Positions 1-64,000 of a DNA stretch of 64,000 nucleotides are shown here, piece by piece. The DNA comes from Glycomyces artemisiae (GTDB lineage Bacteria > Actinomycetota > Actinomycetes > Mycobacteriales > Micromonosporaceae). How positions within the stretch are numbered: position 1 is the stretch's first letter; each line of letters starts with the position of its first letter. The translations under genes were made by a program, and so were the position numbers. The stretch is taken from positions 62,001-126,000 of the forward strand of contig NZ_PVTJ01000011.1 of assembly GCF_003002955.1 (NCBI RefSeq), in the 5' to 3' direction. Below the pieces are notes generated by a model. The model did no database searches. It was given only the letters and a program-made list of their open reading frames with translations, and had not been told where the DNA came from.

Positions 1-999
1 GCGGACGGCGAACGGGAGGAGGCGGTGCTGCGGATCCTCGACCACTACCTCCACACCGCCGCCGCGGGGCTGCGACTGATCAACCCGATCCAGGACCGGG
101 TCGCGACCGCGCCCGCCCGCCCCGGCACCGCGCCGGAGGCGCTGGAGGACGGCAGGGCCGCGATGGCCTGGTTCGCCGCCGAGCACGCCGTGCTCCTCGC
201 CGCGGTCGAGCACGCCGCGGCCTCCGGACACGACGGCCACTGCTGGCGGTTGGCATGGACCGTCTCCGACTACCTCCACCGCAGCGGGCACTGGCACGAC
301 CTCGAAGCGTGCTGGGAGCGCGTCTACGCGTTCGTCGAGCCCCTCGGCGACCACGGGGTCCTCTCGCGGGTGCAGCGCCGCCTCGCGTTCGCCCACACGC
401 TCCTCGACCACTTCGAGGAGGCCGATGAACTCCTCGACCGGGCGCTGGAACGGTGCCGCAGGCCCGGATACGAGATCGATGAGGGCCACGTGCACCAGCT
501 GCGCGGCTACGTGTGGCGCAGGCAGGGCCGCGGCGACGCCGCCCTGGAATGCAACCGCCGCGCGCTCGAACTGTACCGGTCGGCCGGGCACCTCGGAGGC
601 GAGGCGATCGCGCTCAACTCGATCGGCTGGCACCTTGCCACGGTCGACGAGGAGTACGAGGAGGCGCTGGCCGACTGCGAGGCGGCACTGAAACTCGCGG
701 AGTCCGCGGGCGACCTCGCCGGGCAGGCCGCGGCGCGGGACAGCCTCGGGTACATATACCGCAAGCTGGACCGGTACGAGGAGGCCCTCGCCCACCACCG
801 CCGCTCGGTGGACCTCAACCGCGAGGCCGGACTGCGGTCCGGGGAGGCCGCCGCGCTCACCGGCCTCGGCGAGGTGCTCCTGGAGACCGGCGACCGCGGC
901 GGCGCGCGGAAGGCGTGGGCACAAGCACTCGCGGTGTTCGAGGACCTCGGCCACCCGGAAGCGGAGCGGATCCGCGGGCGGCTCGCCGAGCTCGGCTAG
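1..999 (+). CDS. SARP/AfsR-type transcriptional regulator, C-terminal TPR part (5' truncated)
   Basis: The reading frame is open from the first base, so only the C-terminal third of the gene lies in the window. It aligns by eye with the C-terminal half of the SARP at 43136-45886: shared pattern of a conserved 'HCW..W...DYL' element, then tetratricopeptide helices (for example EEALADCEAALKLAESAGD and RYEEALAHHRRSVDLN). In this family the TPR region is the sensor/multimerisation part behind a winged-helix, BTAD and NB-ARC module; those would lie upstream of the window. The GTG at 25 is an internal codon, not a start. The gene ends 149 bp before an iron box. Confidence 0.8.
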   Translation, partial: ADGEREEAVLRILDHYLHTAAAGLRLINPIQDRVATAPARPGTAPEALEDGRAAMAWFAAEHAVLLAAVEHAAASGHDGHCWRLAWTVSDYLHRSGHWHDLEACWERVYAFVEPLGDHGVLSRVQRRLAFAHTLLDHFEEADELLDRALERCRRPGYEIDEGHVHQLRGYVWRRQGRGDAALECNRRALELYRSAGHLGGEAIALNSIGWHLATVDEEYEEALADCEAALKLAESAGDLAGQAAARDSLGYIYRKLDRYEEALAHHRRSVDLNREAGLRSGEAAALTGLGEVLLETGDRGGARKAWAQALAVFEDLGHPEAERIRGRLAELG

Positions 1000-14502: not shown

Positions 14503-15714
14503 TCAGAAGAGCCCGGTCGTGGGCGGTTCCTCGCCGGTGATGCGATAGGCGCCGGCGACGGCGGCCTTCCACTGGCGCGGGTTGTGGTTGGCCACGGTGC
14601 GGGCGTTGCGCCAGTGCCGGTCGAAGCCGAGCGAGCGGTTGGTGATCGAGCCGCCCGCGACGTCGAAGACGAGTTCGGCGGCCTTCAGTGCGGACTCGAT
14701 CGCGATGACGCCGGTCTGGGCCACGGTGACCGAGGCTTCGGCCCCGGCGGCGCGGGCCTCGGCGCCGGTGAGGTGCCGGGTGGCCTCGATCGATTCCGCC
14801 GCGAGCAGGACCACGGACCGGGCGGCGTGGGCGCGGGCCGCGATCTGGCCGACGGTCTCGCGCACGTACGGGTCCTCGCTGGAGACCGCGGCACTGGAGT
14901 GCTTGATGGGGCGGGCCTTCTCGCGCGCGAACCACGCGGCGTCGTCCAGTGCGGCGGCGGCGATCCCGGCTTCGACGGCCGCGAGGTACAGCTGCGCGAA
15001 CGCGCCGAGCCACGGGATCTCCAACTGCGAGTTGTCGCGGGCGACCACCTCGTCGGCGGCCAGGCGCACGGCGTGGAGGCGGGTGGTGCCGCTGGCGGTG
15101 AGGCGCTGGCCGACGGCGTCGAAGTCGTCGAGGCGCTCGACGCCGGTGCGGTCGACCGGGACGGTGAAGCCGTACACGGTGCCGTCCTCGCCCTTCGCGG
15201 ACCCGGTGAACCAGTCCGCGTAGAGGCCGCCCGTGGAGTAGTACTTCTCGCCGTCGACCACCCAGCCGTCACGGTTGTCGGAGGCGCTGTCGCGGTGGAG
15301 GAGGGTGTTGACGGAGCCGCTGGCGCCGCCGGAGCGCTCGTTCGCGGTGCCCGCGAACAGGTGCCCGTCGCGCAGGCGGGCGAGCGTGACGGCCCGGTGC
15401 GGGAGATCGCGGCGGGAGGCGACCTGGTTGGCGGTCAGGAAGCTCGACCGGAGCGCCTGGGCCACATTGGAGTCGGCGCGGGCGATGGCGATGACGAGGT
15501 CGGCCACGTCGCGGACGGTCCCGCCCGCGCCGCCGTCGGCGGCGGCGATCCCGGTGAGGGTGATGCGCTCGGCCGCAAGGGCTTTCACCTCCTCGAAGGC
15601 GTACTGGCGTTCGCGCTCGCGTTCGGCGGCCCCTTCGCGGAGCCGGTCGAGCACGGGCGCGACGGCGGCGCGGATGCCCGCCACCGTGTATTCGGCGGTG
15701 TTGTCGGAGGTCAT
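14503..15714 (-). CDS. Acyl-CoA dehydrogenase-like flavoprotein (SfnB/DszC type)
   Basis: A 403-residue member of the acyl-CoA dehydrogenase fold. The arrangement WVVDGEKYYSTGG around residue 150, 'FDAVGQRLTASGTTRL' and the C-terminal 'DRHWRNARTVANHNP' are typical of SfnB and DszC-like enzymes, which use reduced FMN to oxygenate sulfur compounds instead of dehydrogenating CoA esters. Two more paralogues are in the rightward arm (24291 and 26672). Lies between an LLM gene and the aldo/keto reductase in the leftward operon. Confidence 0.85.
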   Translation of the reverse strand: MTSDNTAEYTVAGIRAAVAPVLDRLREGAAERERERQYAFEEVKALAAERITLTGIAAADGGAGGTVRDVADLVIAIARADSNVAQALRSSFLTANQVASRRDLPHRAVTLARLRDGHLFAGTANERSGGASGSVNTLLHRDSASDNRDGWVVDGEKYYSTGGLYADWFTGSAKGEDGTVYGFTVPVDRTGVERLDDFDAVGQRLTASGTTRLHAVRLAADEVVARDNSQLEIPWLGAFAQLYLAAVEAGIAAAALDDAAWFAREKARPIKHSSAAVSSEDPYVRETVGQIAARAHAARSVVLLAAESIEATRHLTGAEARAAGAEASVTVAQTGVIAIESALKAAELVFDVAGGSITNRSLGFDRHWRNARTVANHNPRQWKAAVAGAYRITGEEPPTTGLF

Positions 15715-15751
15715 GCGATCGCCGTCCTTTCAATCTGCGGGGCGGATTCGG

Positions 15752-16654
15752 TCACGACGCCACCGCTTCGCGGAGGCCGAAGGCGGCCCGCAGGGTCGGG
15801 TGCTCGGCCGGGTCGACCAGGAGCGGGACCAGCTCCCGCAAGACCGCCGACACCGCTTCGAGGTCCCCGGCGGGGACGAGCTCGAAACCGTCGAGGCGGT
15901 CGGCACCGGCCCAGGAGCGCAGGTCCGCGGCTAGGCCGGTGGCGTCGGTCAGGTCGGCGATCGGGACGCGGCCGACGAGCGCGGCCTCCGAGCGCGGCAG
16001 GCCCGCGGCGCGGAGCGCATCGGCAAGGGCCGCATCGGCTCCGGGCGATTCCGCGCGGTCCACGACGATGGCGTCGGCGCGTTCGGCGGCGGTGACGAAG
16101 CCGAGTCCGGCGAGGTCGGCGACGAGCACCGGGCGGCCCTGCACCGATGAGGGGCCGTCGATGGGGCCCGCGACCTTGTACAGCGGGCCGTCGTGGCCGA
16201 TCGGGCGGATCAGCTCGTCGTCCACGAACAGCGCCGCCTCCTGGTCCCCGATGAGGGCCTCGCACGGGAACGACTCCCACAGCCGCGCCAGCACCGCCGC
16301 GTATTCGCGCCAGCGCTCCGCCGGATGCGCGTTGGCCGGGCCCGAGACCTCGTCGCCCGCACCGGGAACGAGCACCGCGCCGAAGCGGCCGTCCGTGGCG
16401 CGGTCGAGCGACAGGAGCCGCCGGGCCGCGTTGTACGGCGCGTTGCCGGTGGTCGCCAGCTCCGGGACGAACGGGATGCGGTGCGCCCCTGCCAGATACG
16501 CAGCGGCCACAGTGGGCTCGATCGCGCCGGGCTCGTCGCGGAGCCGGATCGCGGCGACGCCGGTCTGCTCGGCGAGCGCGGCGATGGCGCCCGCGTCGGC
16601 GAGGGTCAGGCCGGTCTCGCCGACCGCGAGGGAGAGTTGGACGAACGTGCTCAT
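15752..16654 (-). CDS. Short luciferase-like monooxygenase family protein
   Basis: A 300-residue LLM-fold protein, shorter than the usual 330-450. The N-terminal 'LTLADAGAIAALAEQTGVAAIRLRDEP' and 'SLDRATDGRFGAVLVPGAGDEVSGP' match the barrel start and the phosphate-binding region. 'WREYAAVLARLWESFPCEALIGD' matches the helix preceding the substrate lid. Its ATG overlaps the stop of the preceding LLM gene by four bases. Such pairs of a full-length and a short LLM are common in sulfur-scavenging operons; whether this one is active is not clear. Confidence 0.75.
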   Translation of the reverse strand: MSTFVQLSLAVGETGLTLADAGAIAALAEQTGVAAIRLRDEPGAIEPTVAAAYLAGAHRIPFVPELATTGNAPYNAARRLLSLDRATDGRFGAVLVPGAGDEVSGPANAHPAERWREYAAVLARLWESFPCEALIGDQEAALFVDDELIRPIGHDGPLYKVAGPIDGPSSVQGRPVLVADLAGLGFVTAAERADAIVVDRAESPGADAALADALRAAGLPRSEAALVGRVPIADLTDATGLAADLRSWAGADRLDGFELVPAGDLEAVSAVLRELVPLLVDPAEHPTLRAAFGLREAVAS

Positions 16655-17892
16655 GCTGCCTCCAAGGCGGGGACGGGGCCGGCCGCGGCGGGGGCCGCGG
16701 GCAGGCCGAGGCCGAGGTGCGAGCGCAGGGTCGAGCCCTCGTACTCGCGGCGGAACAGGCCGCGCCGTTGCAGCTCGGGGACCACGTGGTCGGCGAAGTC
16801 GTCGAGGCCGGAGGGGAGCACGTCGGGCATGACGTTGAACCCGTCGGCCGCGCCGGAGCGGAACCACAGCTCGATGTCGTCGGCGACCTGCTCCGGCGTG
16901 CCGGTGACGATCCGGTGCCCGAAGCCGCCGCCGAGCTTGCGCAGGAGCTGGCGCAGCGTCGGGCGCTCGCGCTCCACGATGCCGCGGACCATGCGGTAGA
17001 AGGTCTGCGAGCCGCCGGCCTCGTCGGGGTCGAGGAGCCGGTCGAGCGGGAACGGCTCGTCGTCGTCCAGCTCGCCGACGTCGAACCCGACCTGGCCCGA
17101 GAGGCGCCCGCGCGCGTACACGTCGGGCAGCAGGTCGTCCAGGAGTTCCCTGCGGGCCTTCGCTTCCACCTCGGTCGAGCCGATCACGGTGGAGAGTCCG
17201 GGGAGGACGACGATGCCGTCGGGGCTGCGGCCGTGGGCGGCGGCGCCCGCGCGCAGCTCGGCGCGGAACGCCTTGGCGTGGTCGAGGTCCTGGTCCGCGG
17301 AGAACACCACTTCGGCGACGCGGGCCGCGAGGCGGCGGCCGTCGCTGGAGCCGCCCGCCTGGACCACCACGGGGCGGCCCTGCGGCGACACGAGGGAGGT
17401 CCGGGCGGCCCAGGAGGCCGCGGCGTGCTCGGTGAACGCGGCGGCGCGCTGGTAGCGGTAGGCGTGGGCCTGCTCGGCGTTGCGGCCGAAGTTGCGGGCC
17501 GCGACGGGCCCGGCCGTGGTCACCACGTTCCAGCCGAACCGGCCGCCCGAGACGTAGTCGAGGTCGCCGAGGCGCCGCGCCAGCTCATCGGGGTCGTTGT
17601 AGGACGACGAGAGGGTGCCGATGAGGCCGATCCGCTCGGTCTGCGCGGCGATCCGCGCGAGCACGGTGGACGGTTCGAGGTTGTTGCCCGCGCGGTGGCG
17701 GATCGCCGGGTCCAGGAGCGGCCCGTCGGCGAGGAACACCGCGTCGAGTTTCGCGGCCTCGGCTTTCTTCGCGATCGAGGTGTAGTGGTCGATCGTGTAG
17801 CTGGCGAGGGGGTCGGTGCCCGGGAGCCGCCACGAGCCGCCGAAGACGCCCGCGTTGAGAATGTTCACGTTGAGGTGCAGTTGATCTGGCAT
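16651..17892 (-). CDS. NtaA/SnaA/DszA-family FMN-dependent monooxygenase
   Basis: A 413-residue protein. NtaA/DszA signatures are clear: 'NILNAGVFGGSWRLPG' at the start, 'AKLDAVFLADGPLL', 'LGDLDYVSGGRFGWNVVTT', and SPQGRPVVVQAGGSSDGR. Members cleave C-S or C-N bonds using FMNH2 and O2. Between 'RYQRAAAFTEHAA' and SPQGRP, most relatives carry about 40 extra residues ending in a 'FxVRGPLNxxR' element that lines the substrate site; here that stretch is absent. Ten bases downstream of the ABC ATPase gene. The deletion may change specificity. Confidence 0.85.
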   Translation of the reverse strand: MPDQLHLNVNILNAGVFGGSWRLPGTDPLASYTIDHYTSIAKKAEAAKLDAVFLADGPLLDPAIRHRAGNNLEPSTVLARIAAQTERIGLIGTLSSSYNDPDELARRLGDLDYVSGGRFGWNVVTTAGPVAARNFGRNAEQAHAYRYQRAAAFTEHAAASWAARTSLVSPQGRPVVVQAGGSSDGRRLAARVAEVVFSADQDLDHAKAFRAELRAGAAAHGRSPDGIVVLPGLSTVIGSTEVEAKARRELLDDLLPDVYARGRLSGQVGFDVGELDDDEPFPLDRLLDPDEAGGSQTFYRMVRGIVERERPTLRQLLRKLGGGFGHRIVTGTPEQVADDIELWFRSGAADGFNVMPDVLPSGLDDFADHVVPELQRRGLFRREYEGSTLRSHLGLGLPAAPAAAGPVPALEAA

Positions 17893-61363: not shown

Positions 61364-61482
61364 AGACCTGAAGGCCGTATAGCCATCCCTAGCCCCCACC
61401 CATCCGTGGATGACGGTTTCACCAAACACCTACGCCCGCTTTAGGTCGTATGTGATGGTGTCACTAGTCATGAGGGATTGCA

Positions 61483-62193
61483 ATGGCAAACAAGGGAACC
61501 ACCCGCCGGGCTGCGCTGCGACGGACGGGTCTGCGGATCGTCGGGGTGGTCCGTCTGTCACGGGTGACGGACGTGACCACCTCGCCCGAGCGGCAGAAGG
61601 AGTCGATCGAGCGGTGGGCGGCCGAGGCTGGCCACCGCATTGTCGGCTGGGCCGAGGACCTCGACGTCTCCGGCTCGACTGACCCGTTCGAACGCGAGGA
61701 ACTCGGCCCGTGGCTCTCGGAGCGGTCCGGTGAGTTCGACGGGCTGTGCGCGGCGAAGATCGACCGGTGGGCACGCTCGATCGTGCACTTCTCGCGACTG
61801 CTGGCCTGGTGCGAGGAGCACGGCAAGCTCGCCGCCACCGCCGACCGGCAGCTCAACACCGCCGAACCGTCGGGCAAGCTCATCGCCTACGTCGCGGCGA
61901 TCTTCACCGAGATGGAACTCGACGCCATCTCCGAACGCGTCACCTCCGCCCGTGCGAAACTGCGCCAGCAGGGCAAGTGGCCTGGCGGCACGATCCCCTT
62001 CGGTTACCGCACCGCCCACGACGCTGAAGGCCGCACCACCGGCCTCGAGATCGACGAGGAACGCGCCCAGTGGGCACGGGCGATGGTCGCCAAGCGATTG
62101 GAGGGCTGGTCGTTCCAGAAGATCGCCGACTGGCTCAACGAGCAAGGCGTCACCAGCGGCAAAGGCAAACCAAAAGCCCCCGCGGTTCGCTGA
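61483..62193 (+). pseudogene. Serine recombinase, truncated inside the recombinase domain
   Basis: A 236-residue frame. The resolvase catalytic domain is complete: VGVVRLSRVTDVTTSPERQ with the nucleophilic Ser (about residue 26), 'FDGLCAAKIDRWARS' and a long E helix. The next domain starts normally ('KLRQQGKWPGGTIPFGYR', 'RLEGWSFQKIADWLNEQGV') but the frame stops at KAPAVR, where relatives continue with a 'W...TVRRILRNP' segment and a zinc-ribbon/coiled coil for 200 or more residues. So DNA-binding is lost. The 3' end overlaps the convergent GNAT gene by 44 bp. A remnant integrase of a former mobile element. Confidence 0.8.
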
Positions 62194-63091
62194 GCACGGG
62201 GAACCCGATGATTAAGAGGGCCAGGACTCGTGTGTGCATGAGCCCGAGATCGCTGAGTCCGTCGGCTCGGCAGATCCGGTCCGAGGGGCTATCGAGTTCG
62301 GTCTGCAGAAGCTGGTAGGCGGCATCGTTGGCGCTGCCCCACCGCATCGCGGCCCGCCAGAGGGCTCGCCCGAATCCCCTAGCCCGGAACTCGGGCAGGA
62401 CCGCGAAGTATTGGCCGAGCAGCCGCAGACGACCGCGCGAGTCGGGGAGGGTACGCATCGGGCCGATCGCACCGACGACCTTCATGGAGTCCTTGACAGT
62501 AAGCACCGGCCCGTCGTCGATTCCCTGGTCAATGCGCTCGGCCAGGAAGGGGAACCCCTCGCCCGCATTAACCGCAAACGCGCGGAAGCCGCTGGCTGAT
62601 GCAGGGGGTTGTTCGACACACACGGCTACATGCTCGGAGTCCGTGCACGAATTGCTGCCGCGCACGAACGTCTTGAGCTGCACGCGGACGGTCCGCTGGG
62701 CGTGCCTGTCAGGCAATTTGCCGAACCAGACGAGTCGAGCACGGGCGACGCCATGGTCCGCTGCAAGCTTTGCCCCCACGTCGCCTCCCGTCCGGCGAGC
62801 GCGCTCAAGATTCCCGTAGCAGTAGAGGTCCACCGTGCCCGCACCCCTTTGATTGAGCACGGGGATGAGAACGTACGCGTCCGAATCGACGATCGCCTTG
62901 GTGAGGATGCGGGCGGTCTTCCTTCCGCCCCAGACCCGATCCTTGTCGTACGGGAGGTATTCTCCCGCCTCGGTGGTCGCGAGGAGTTCGGACCAGATCG
63001 CGGCGGCGTCCTCGTCGGGGTGGATCGGCCCGAGCGACGGCAGGCAGGGAGCCTTGCCGACCACCTCGGCAAGCGCTGCGGGATCGGTCAT
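62150..63091 (-). CDS. GNAT-family N-acetyltransferase-like protein in the RiPP island
   Basis: A 313-residue protein. The C-terminal half has the acetyl-CoA motif: 'YFAVLPEFRARGFGRALWRAA' with RxxGxG/A near residue 240, and 'LDSPSDRICRADGLSDLG'. The N-terminal half ('PYDKDRVWGGRKTARILTKA', 'VDLYCYGNLERARRTGGDVG') is not one I recognise. The last 20 or so residues (after ALLIIGF) are read from DNA antisense to the truncated recombinase, so its 3' end may be abnormal. ATG 63091 chosen; a TTG at 63100 is possible. Separated from the precursor gene by a strong hairpin. Might acetylate the peptide product or give immunity. Confidence 0.7.
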   Translation of the reverse strand: MTDPAALAEVVGKAPCLPSLGPIHPDEDAAAIWSELLATTEAGEYLPYDKDRVWGGRKTARILTKAIVDSDAYVLIPVLNQRGAGTVDLYCYGNLERARRTGGDVGAKLAADHGVARARLVWFGKLPDRHAQRTVRVQLKTFVRGSNSCTDSEHVAVCVEQPPASASGFRAFAVNAGEGFPFLAERIDQGIDDGPVLTVKDSMKVVGAIGPMRTLPDSRGRLRLLGQYFAVLPEFRARGFGRALWRAAMRWGSANDAAYQLLQTELDSPSDRICRADGLSDLGLMHTRVLALLIIGFPVLSEPRGLLVCLCRW

Positions 63092-63112
63092 AGTCCCCAA
63101 CCGTATCGGGAG

Positions 63113-63153
63113 CGCGCGGGCACCGGTGGGTATCCAGCACCGGTGCCCGCGCG
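63113..63153 (-). terminator. Strong hairpin (attenuator) between precursor and GNAT genes
   Basis: A perfect 16-bp inverted repeat (arms 63113-63128 and 63138-63153, core GGGCACCGGTG) with a 9-nt loop begins 8 nt after the precursor stop codon. It would cut most transcripts there, keeping precursor mRNA more abundant than GNAT mRNA, a common RiPP arrangement. Confidence 0.75.
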
Positions 63154-63160
63154 ATCTTCT

Positions 63161-63316
63161 CTAGTAGGGGTTGTCGTCCCCGGCGTTGCACGAGCAGGCG
63201 GCTGACTCGACGAGGACGTCGAGGTCATCGACGAACTCGGGCGCGGTCTGGTCGGTCTCGTACTCATCGGTCGATCTGAACGGCTTGAGTTCGAGGGTGA
63301 TCGGCATCGCAGCCAT
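63161..63316 (-). CDS. RiPP precursor-like peptide (51 residues)
   Basis: A 51-residue peptide, too short for usual gene calls. Leader-like N-terminus MAAMPITLELKPFRSTDEYE, an acidic middle with FVDDLDVLVE, and a small-residue/Cys core SAACSCNAGDDNPY at the C-terminus. A near-perfect Shine-Dalgarno GGAGGTGA (63330-63323, minus) lies 6 nt before the ATG and inside the end of the radical SAM gene; the ATG is 2 nt after that gene's stop. Two cysteines spaced C-x-C next to N and D residues are suitable for thioether cross-links made by radical SAM/SPASM enzymes. The modification and product are inferred; I do not recognise a named family. Confidence 0.7.
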   Translation of the reverse strand: MAAMPITLELKPFRSTDEYETDQTAPEFVDDLDVLVESAACSCNAGDDNPY

Positions 63317-63318
63317 GG

Positions 63319-64000
63319 CTATTCACCTCCCCTCGGTTCTCCGTGCTGGCAGTACATCCCCAAGGGGGCCTTCGACTCCTGGTACTGCTTTGCGAGCGGA
63401 CGGCAGGTCCAGCAGGTACCGGAGAGCGCACATCCGGAGCAGCCCCCGGTGCGGAGCATGAGCCGGTCGGCGACCTCCTTGAGGCGGGTGAGTCCGAGCA
63501 GACCCTCGGTCATGAGCGAAATCGCGTCGTCGCGGCCGATCTTGCAGATCGACGCTCGTCCGAACGGGTCGGAGTGAAAGAACGTGTGCCCGGCGTTGCA
63601 GCCTTTGAACGGTTCACGTTTCCGCAGGTATTCGGTCGATTGGACTTGGAGAGGCTCACCGCCCCCGTAAATGGTCGGGCTCATGTTGACGAAGGTGTGG
63701 AACGGAAGGCCGAATGAGCGTGCGAGGTCCTCCATCGCCGCCACCTCGTGGTCGTTGGTCGAGGTGACGATGTTGTTGAGTTTGATCGGCAGACCGGCCT
63801 CAACTCCGGCTTCGAGCCCTGCGATGAACCGCCGGTACGCTCCGTGGCGCTTGGTGAGCTTGTCGTAGGACTCCTCGGTCGCACCGTAGACGGATAGCGT
63901 GATGCGGTACGGGCGCAAGCGCTTGAGCATGGCAAGGATGCGCGGGTCGGACAAGCGAGACCCGTTTGAGGAAACCGAGATCATCATTCCCAGTGCGAAG
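63319..64000 (-). CDS. Radical SAM/SPASM peptide maturase (5' end beyond window)
   Basis: The visible C-terminal 227 residues of a radical SAM protein; the frame is open to the right edge, so the CxxxCxxC cluster motif lies outside. Seen are the barrel strands 'MISVSSNGSRLSD', 'LRPYRITLSVYGATEESYDKLTKRHGAY', 'LPIKLNNIVTSTNDHEV', and a Cys-rich SPASM end: CNAGHTFFHSDPFGRASICKIG, 'CSGCALSGTCWTCRPL' and 'MYCQHGE' (eight cysteines for auxiliary Fe-S clusters). This pattern is that of RiPP-modifying enzymes (sacti/ranthipeptide type). Located directly upstream of the precursor gene on the same transcript. Confidence 0.85.
   Translation of the reverse strand, partial: FALGMMISVSSNGSRLSDPRILAMLKRLRPYRITLSVYGATEESYDKLTKRHGAYRRFIAGLEAGVEAGLPIKLNNIVTSTNDHEVAAMEDLARSFGLPFHTFVNMSPTIYGGGEPLQVQSTEYLRKREPFKGCNAGHTFFHSDPFGRASICKIGRDDAISLMTEGLLGLTRLKEVADRLMLRTGGCSGCALSGTCWTCRPLAKQYQESKAPLGMYCQHGEPRGGE

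Follow-up and report, generated by a model that had tools for sequence, protein, structure and literature searches.

The 64,000 nucleotides analysed here (the window, G000:C11:62001-126000) come from a 167,889-base contig of Glycomyces artemisiae and carry at their right-hand edge a compact leftward cassette composed of a radical S-adenosylmethionine (SAM) enzyme gene, a gene for a 51-residue peptide, a stem-loop and a GNAT-fold acetyltransferase gene. The likeliest reading is that the cassette belongs to a widespread and apparently unnamed actinobacterial family devoted to ribosomally synthesized and post-translationally modified peptides (RiPPs). An initial annotation of the window had described a SPASM radical SAM gene followed closely by a short peptide gene with a good ribosome binding site and by a GNAT gene, and all of these parts were located.

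The cassette and its enzyme

The radical SAM gene crosses the window edge, so that its 3' part (63319..64000, minus strand; Pfam Radical_SAM, E 2e-18) lies inside the window, with cysteines that are conserved in relatives. Extension along the contig gave the complete gene at G000:C11:125319-126437, up to window-equivalent position 64437, with a GTG start codon, an AGGAG upstream of it and a product of 372 amino acids that ends in a seven-cysteine SPASM-type C-terminus. The peptide gene (63161..63316, minus strand; MAAMPITLELKPFRSTDEYETDQTAPEFVDDLDVLVESAACSCNAGDDNPY) begins 2 nt past the radical SAM stop codon (63319-63321), and the sequence of its ribosome binding site, GGAGGTGA, is found at 63323..63330 (minus strand), where the 3' end of the radical SAM gene overlaps it. 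The GNAT gene (62150..63091 from its ATG, minus strand) shows a two-domain architecture in a structure model. The last approximately 20 residues of its open reading frame (ORF) are absent from six aligned relatives, and its 3' end overlaps a truncated serine recombinase gene on the opposite strand.

Between the peptide and GNAT genes lies a stem-loop (63110..63156, minus strand) with arms of 19 nt that are 95% complementary and a predicted folding energy of -44 kcal/mol (z -4.8). The hairpin described in the initial annotation is therefore real and strong; its label as an attenuator is unsupported because no T-run follows it. A 90-nt region at the end of the peptide gene folds with z < -2 in 94/105 loci of the family introduced below, and the value for the nearest relative, L024 (Glycomyces sp. 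TRM65418), is -1.2. Upstream of the radical SAM gene, and first in the leftward gene order, is a gene for a 196-residue protein with no match in Pfam or NCBIfam. A scan for sigma-70 promoters gave no matches, and a terminator scan performed at chance level.

Ten cysteines of the enzyme are invariant in 16/16 aligned relatives: C89, C93 and C96, which form a CxxxCxxC motif, and C280, C298, C333, C336, C342, C345 and C363. In a larger set of 69 enzymes nine of them remain invariant, with conservation of the other one at 90% or more. In a structure model of the L024 enzyme, which is 82% identical to that of the window, the N-terminus consists of three strands followed by helices, and an alignment of the model with SuiB pairs 324 residues across 3..363, which is possible only if half or more of the N-terminal 73 residues take part. 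The initial annotation had suggested looking for a protein with a RiPP recognition element (RRE); the model suggests an RRE-like fold within the N-terminus of the enzyme itself, a likeness at the level of fold only; a sequence search for PqqD at E 0.1 found no match in the 69 members.

SkfB and SuiB share the overall fold of the L024 model, in which the alignment begins at residue 3, and their sequences are 18% and 12-14% identical to the enzyme, respectively. The precursors and neighbour genes of SkfB and SuiB differ from those of the cassette. Against curated NCBIfam models beyond the general Radical_SAM family, both the L024 enzyme and the window enzyme (the latter among the 25 of 40 matches listed) score far below the cut-offs. 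This includes the sactipeptide maturase models, where the window enzyme reaches 58.7 bits for StsB against a cut-off of 625 (L024, 63.7 bits) and 37.7 bits for SkfB against a cut-off of 300, in both cases over the radical SAM core only. A PADLOC viperin match (58 bits) was discounted because general similarity among radical SAM enzymes accounts for it.

The window peptide has no match in Pfam, NCBIfam, PADLOC or PHROGs, and when these libraries were considered as a source of named families for the cassette genes they returned only generic radical SAM, HTH/TPR-regulator, GNAT, APH and NUDIX matches. The view that the cassette could not be placed in a named RiPP family thus stands for the libraries (for the window enzyme, the NCBIfam matches listed) and for the open-licence literature searched, neither of which holds a name for it. 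In that literature, judged by title, core strings occurred only in a cancer-gene context and DUF6415 only in the context of a spider peptidase inhibitor. Radical SAM RiPPs are a known kind; the core, the kinase and GNAT partners described below and the carriage by phage are apparently new.

The peptide family and a predicted cross-link

The family was assembled as 106 loci, comprising that of the window, 80 from genome contigs (the best 80 of 119 relatives), 18 from viral contigs and seven from plasmid-collection records. The viral loci were taken from 40, the other 22 (L117-L138) having been left out at 24-31% identity over short stretches, and the plasmid records are seven of the eight that cover 80% of the enzyme, H8 being from the same organism as H7. 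Also outside the 106 are L006, L008 and L009 (the same places as L046, L102 and L096), L010 (a broken gene), and L007 and L011, both of which carry the peptide. Some of the 106 are mutually identical, such as L108, L109, L110 and L116.

At 100/106 loci a peptide ORF that passes a motif filter starts no more than 40 nt from the stop codon of the radical SAM gene; only 5/2010 random positions in the same loci pass, and the peptide therefore accompanies the radical SAM gene beyond chance. Five further peptides with a variant end were accepted by eye, and at L094 the core is present and the contig ends before the stop codon, the other 105/106 peptides being complete. The initial annotation had named two tests of its proposal, namely whether homologous short peptides stand beside related radical SAM genes and whether their C-terminal Cys, Asp, Asn and aromatic residues are kept. 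The proposal withstood both: such peptides are present at 106/106 loci, and these residues are the conserved part of them. Thirteen extra loci (ten at 44-47% identity; L167 is apparently the same place as L060) all have the peptide and a kinase match.

The enzyme is sporadic, being found in 6/396 genomes of the phylum at E 1e-30, 18/200 genomes of the family at E 1e-40 and 2/22 genomes of the genus, the second of which matches at the same 82% identity as L024. Its relatives extend across Actinomycetota and are also encoded by plasmids, by viral contigs and by Streptomyces phage Success (NC_073472), an isolated phage in which all three genes are present and annotated as oxidoreductase, hypothetical protein and kinase.

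The 102 distinct precursors carry 45 distinct core strings, which fall largely into two classes. The window core, CSCNAGDDNPY (63164..63196, minus strand), belongs to class A, with the consensus C-[SN]-C-x-A-[GS]-D-D-[NQ]-P-[YHF]. Column counts over its 76 distinct peptides are Cys 76, Ser 64/Asn 10, Cys 76, a variable position, Ala 69, Gly 54/Ser 17, Asp 74, Asp 73, Asn 44/Gln 27, Pro 75 and Tyr 50/His 21/Phe 4/Asn 1. Class B (24 distinct peptides) follows G-C-x-x-D-N-P-Y, with Gly 24, Cys 24, Gly/Asn/Ser, Asp/Glu/Asn, Asp 24, Asn 24, Pro 24 and Tyr 23/Phe 1, and in 18 of these one further residue follows the aromatic. A leader motif is found in 78/102 distinct peptides, against 7.9 expected in shuffles, a descriptive comparison only because the pattern was defined after the peptides had been viewed. 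A quickly built tree of the enzymes shows a minimum of two changes of core class. The amino acids of the class A core are kept while their codons vary synonymously, a pattern that points to selection acting on the peptide sequence.

We consider it almost certain that the peptide undergoes modification of the RiPP type. A three-residue cyclophane had been called unlikely for the window peptide, and the family agrees: the window Tyr is the last residue, and relatives have at most one residue after the aromatic, apart from L166 (NPYGD) and L054, which has a Phe between the two Cys. A cross-link through Cys is somewhat more likely than not, and by analogy with PapB its simplest form would be a thioether to an Asp side chain. 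PapB is described (PMC9413430) as a SPASM radical SAM enzyme that acts on Cys and Asp with the natural motif Cys-X3-Asp and accepts n = 0-6. PapB with PapA (freyrasin, ranthipeptides) resembles the present system in its SPASM enzyme. The spacing Cys-X3-Asp/Glu occurs in class A cores (with Asp in 74 and Glu in 1 of the 76 distinct peptides) and is absent from class B. PapA has six motifs, whereas the short C-terminal cores here have one or two Cys, the class B spacing is shorter, and the third gene is a kinase or a GNAT gene.

The steps would be as follows. The RRE-like N-terminal domain of the enzyme would hold the leader, and a 5'-deoxyadenosyl radical together with the SPASM clusters would join the core Cys to the Asp-Asp-Asn segment, the simplest link being a thioether from Cys to an Asp side-chain carbon. 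A kinase could then phosphorylate the terminal Tyr, or a GNAT enzyme could acetylate the product elsewhere; in the window cassette the GNAT enzyme alone would carry out this second step. The second step would most likely protect the producer from its own product and, less likely, finish the active product.

The third gene and competing explanations

The gene after the peptide is usually a GNAT gene or an APH-like kinase gene and rarely both. By gene calling it stands in the same order at 101/106 loci, to which tblastn adds L029 and L105, and two of the 106 (L021 and L027) have neither enzyme within 4 kb. The kinase/GNAT state changes at least four times in the enzyme tree. Loci bearing the kinase (phage Success added; L094 left out, as its contig ends) have Tyr at the core end in 70/70 cases, and kinase-less loci have His, Phe or Asn there in 31/36. 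This pattern fits a kinase that acts on the terminal Tyr, although the independent switches are few and we regard the claim as evenly balanced. The Ser between the two Cys was considered as the kinase target and rejected, because class B cores lack it and the recognisable class B third genes are nonetheless kinases. When the PDB was searched by sequence with the phage kinase, the matches were all weak and most were unrelated.

Strict alternation of kinase and GNAT was also discarded as a rule, since L042 and loci of the genomes G787 and G885 (L178, L179, L192, L195) carry both genes behind the peptide; these cassettes are likely intermediates of a swap between the two. Of the copies in G787, one combines a GNAT gene interrupted by a stop with a split kinase match, and the other has a split radical SAM match.

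Both enzymes also occur away from the cassette. A GNAT profile run over 394 genomes (E 1e-25) matched 11 places in 10 genomes, of which 7/11 have the radical SAM gene and peptide and the other four belong to genomes in which a search at E 1e-20 did not find the enzyme. The kinase matched 41/388 genomes, and the 30 loci that were read divide into 12 with the enzyme, four with a different radical SAM gene and 14 with none in view. For these 14 genomes, the enzyme was not found in 12, lies on another contig in one and is a fragment in one. Such orphan kinases and GNATs would be expected of immunity or resistance genes, and also of enzymes with other substrates. Related APH-like kinases also stand behind a different radical SAM gene (23-29% identity) at L202 and L203, as well as at L210 and L211. 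At L202 and L203 the different radical SAM ORF is Cys-rich at its C-terminus and ends in SGCNPRN or SGCNPRY, resembling a built-in core, and is possibly part of a second radical SAM-kinase system.

Our overall reading, to which we assign a probability of roughly 0.5, is that of a radical SAM RiPP cassette that forms a link from Cys to Asp or Asn and whose kinase or GNAT enzyme modifies the product, as immunity or as tailoring. The immunity role in particular is held tentatively, at a little less than an even chance, and we know of no precedent for RiPP immunity by tyrosine phosphorylation. Several observations weigh against the combined picture. Class B cores have a single Cys and no Cys-X3-Asp, and in class A no single Asp is invariant. 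Tyr is kept in four GNAT-only loci, including that of the window, and in one locus with neither enzyme. When ancestry is counted, the link between Tyr and kinase comes down to three and five independent pairs (p 0.25-0.5), none contrary and not significant, and if the presence of both enzymes in L042 is disregarded p rises to as much as 1. The catalytic Asp of the HTD motif is replaced by Glu in 6/64 kinases, and other substrates are possible for the orphan kinases, 13/14 of which are only 38-56% identical to a cassette kinase. Finally, the absence of a dedicated exporter or protease from the annotated neighbours is unusual for a secreted toxin.

This last point concerns the protease and exporter that the initial annotation had proposed to look for: neither dedicated type occurs among the shared neighbour families annotated, which are a part of all those present, many rarer ones lying outside that annotation. 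The only transporter-type family annotated is an ABC ATPase, at 10 loci and at varying distance. In one Streptomyces plasmid cassette an S66-family peptidase gene (L018:10804-11847) stands downstream of the GNAT gene. The microcin C immunity protein MccF belongs to the S66 family.

The alternative that survives best is that the kinase and GNAT complete the active product as exchangeable enzymes giving different final caps. The constant position of the third gene and the loci that hold both enzymes agree with it, as does the APH-family kinase gene (PF01636) in the cluster of the pristinin-type class V lanthipeptides, assigned to dehydration/cyclization (PMC7794033). The two loci with neither enzyme fit it poorly, as do the relatives of both enzymes in genomes whose searches did not find the radical SAM enzyme, and we judge tailoring to be a real but lesser possibility. 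The resemblance to class V lanthipeptides is itself limited: the annotated proteins of the window island match neither the kinase nor the HopA1-like lyase model, and other loci do have a kinase, with no lyase search aimed at them. Dehydration of a core Ser in the class V manner is not a shared step, as class B cores are mostly without Ser or Thr.

A broader version of the immunity role is more doubtful still. Actinophages, plasmids and islands might carry a new RiPP class that serves as weapon and immunity, in which the cross-linked peptide is neutralised by Tyr phosphorylation or, after gain of a GNAT gene, by acetylation. In producers that gained the GNAT gene, loss of the kinase would have been followed by replacement of Tyr with His or Phe, a change that would leave kinase-bearing neighbours unprotected, and the orphan kinases and GNATs of non-producers would be resistance genes.

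The modified peptide could instead be a signal, the ligand of an adjacent helix-turn-helix (HTH) regulator, as known from other peptide-sensing systems, and could help a phage or plasmid to time its action. Among the 92 loci with sufficient flanking sequence, a regulator from one of six HTH families lies within 4.5 kb upstream at 77/92, against 3/92 in the matching downstream stretch. A Pfam check of one representative from each of five of the six families found HTH in all, a weak TPR in two and a clear DUF5753, marking a regulator that we take to be WhiJ-like, in one. Facing the window cassette, and divergent from it, is the gene of an NsdA-family TPR-like regulator (NF053720, 237 bits) that contains an HTH domain; a NUDIX gene follows. 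The regulator families vary among loci, however, no exporter or importer is among the annotated neighbours, and a losable kinase would have no obvious use in signalling. Such regulators are also common in streptomycetes, with more than 10 WhiJ paralogues each (PMC4255298). We consider a signal unlikely, though a serious rival.

Very unlikely is a product of the cofactor type, excised from the peptide end and used in the cell. Mycofactocin (MftC) and PQQ (PqqE) likewise arise from a short precursor with a conserved end; the C-terminal aromatic is mostly conserved here, no exporter is annotated nearby, and 69/69 members show partial similarity to the mycofactocin maturase model. That similarity amounts to 56.1 bits (window) and 63.4 bits (L024) against a cut-off of 265, scores for both systems being far below the curated cut-offs, and the last residue can be Y, H, F or N. 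Sporadic presence and phage carriage misfit a core cofactor as well. It is hardly credible that the peptide gene is an ORF by chance or a regulatory leader that encodes no substrate: despite its small size and the lack of a match to any known family, its core is kept through codon variation and its end is conserved at 106/106 loci against the 5/2010 controls.

For chemists, a genetically simple three-gene family with short C-terminal cores offers a ready set of testable peptides. The natural switch between kinase and acetyltransferase, combined with the Tyr/His/Phe change, allows what the third gene does to be tested directly, and the complete copy in phage Success, isolated on Streptomyces lividans, makes study in a laboratory host possible.

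The island around the cassette

The cassette is contained in an inserted island of about 9,077 bp, whose limits, taken from the edges of the alignments, are G000:C11:123406-132482 and whose left part occupies 61406..64000 of the window. This follows from an empty site in the related genome G511, where both flanks are contiguous but for 3 nt (L003:3230-6406 and 15484-17282). On one side the island is flanked by a GH42 beta-galactosidase gene and on the other by an ORF of 552 amino acids, which matched no Pfam family at E 0.001 and which by our own reading alone is like a substrate-binding protein.

Imperfect inverted repeats occur at both island ends. At the left end is the truncated large serine recombinase gene (61483..62193, plus strand), in which the Resolvase domain is complete and the Recombinase domain is represented by its start alone (39/102 positions). 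The gene is cut short in that domain at the place where it is overlapped by the 3' end of the GNAT ORF, and the island may therefore no longer be self-mobile. Beyond the NUDIX gene, to the right of the window, is a gene for a TrlF-family AAA-like ATPase (L003:12063-15173, G000:C11:129062-132172; NF045780, 531 bits), which also matches PADLOC Ppl and Mad more weakly. With this defence-like gene, the element resembles a cargo island of small size.

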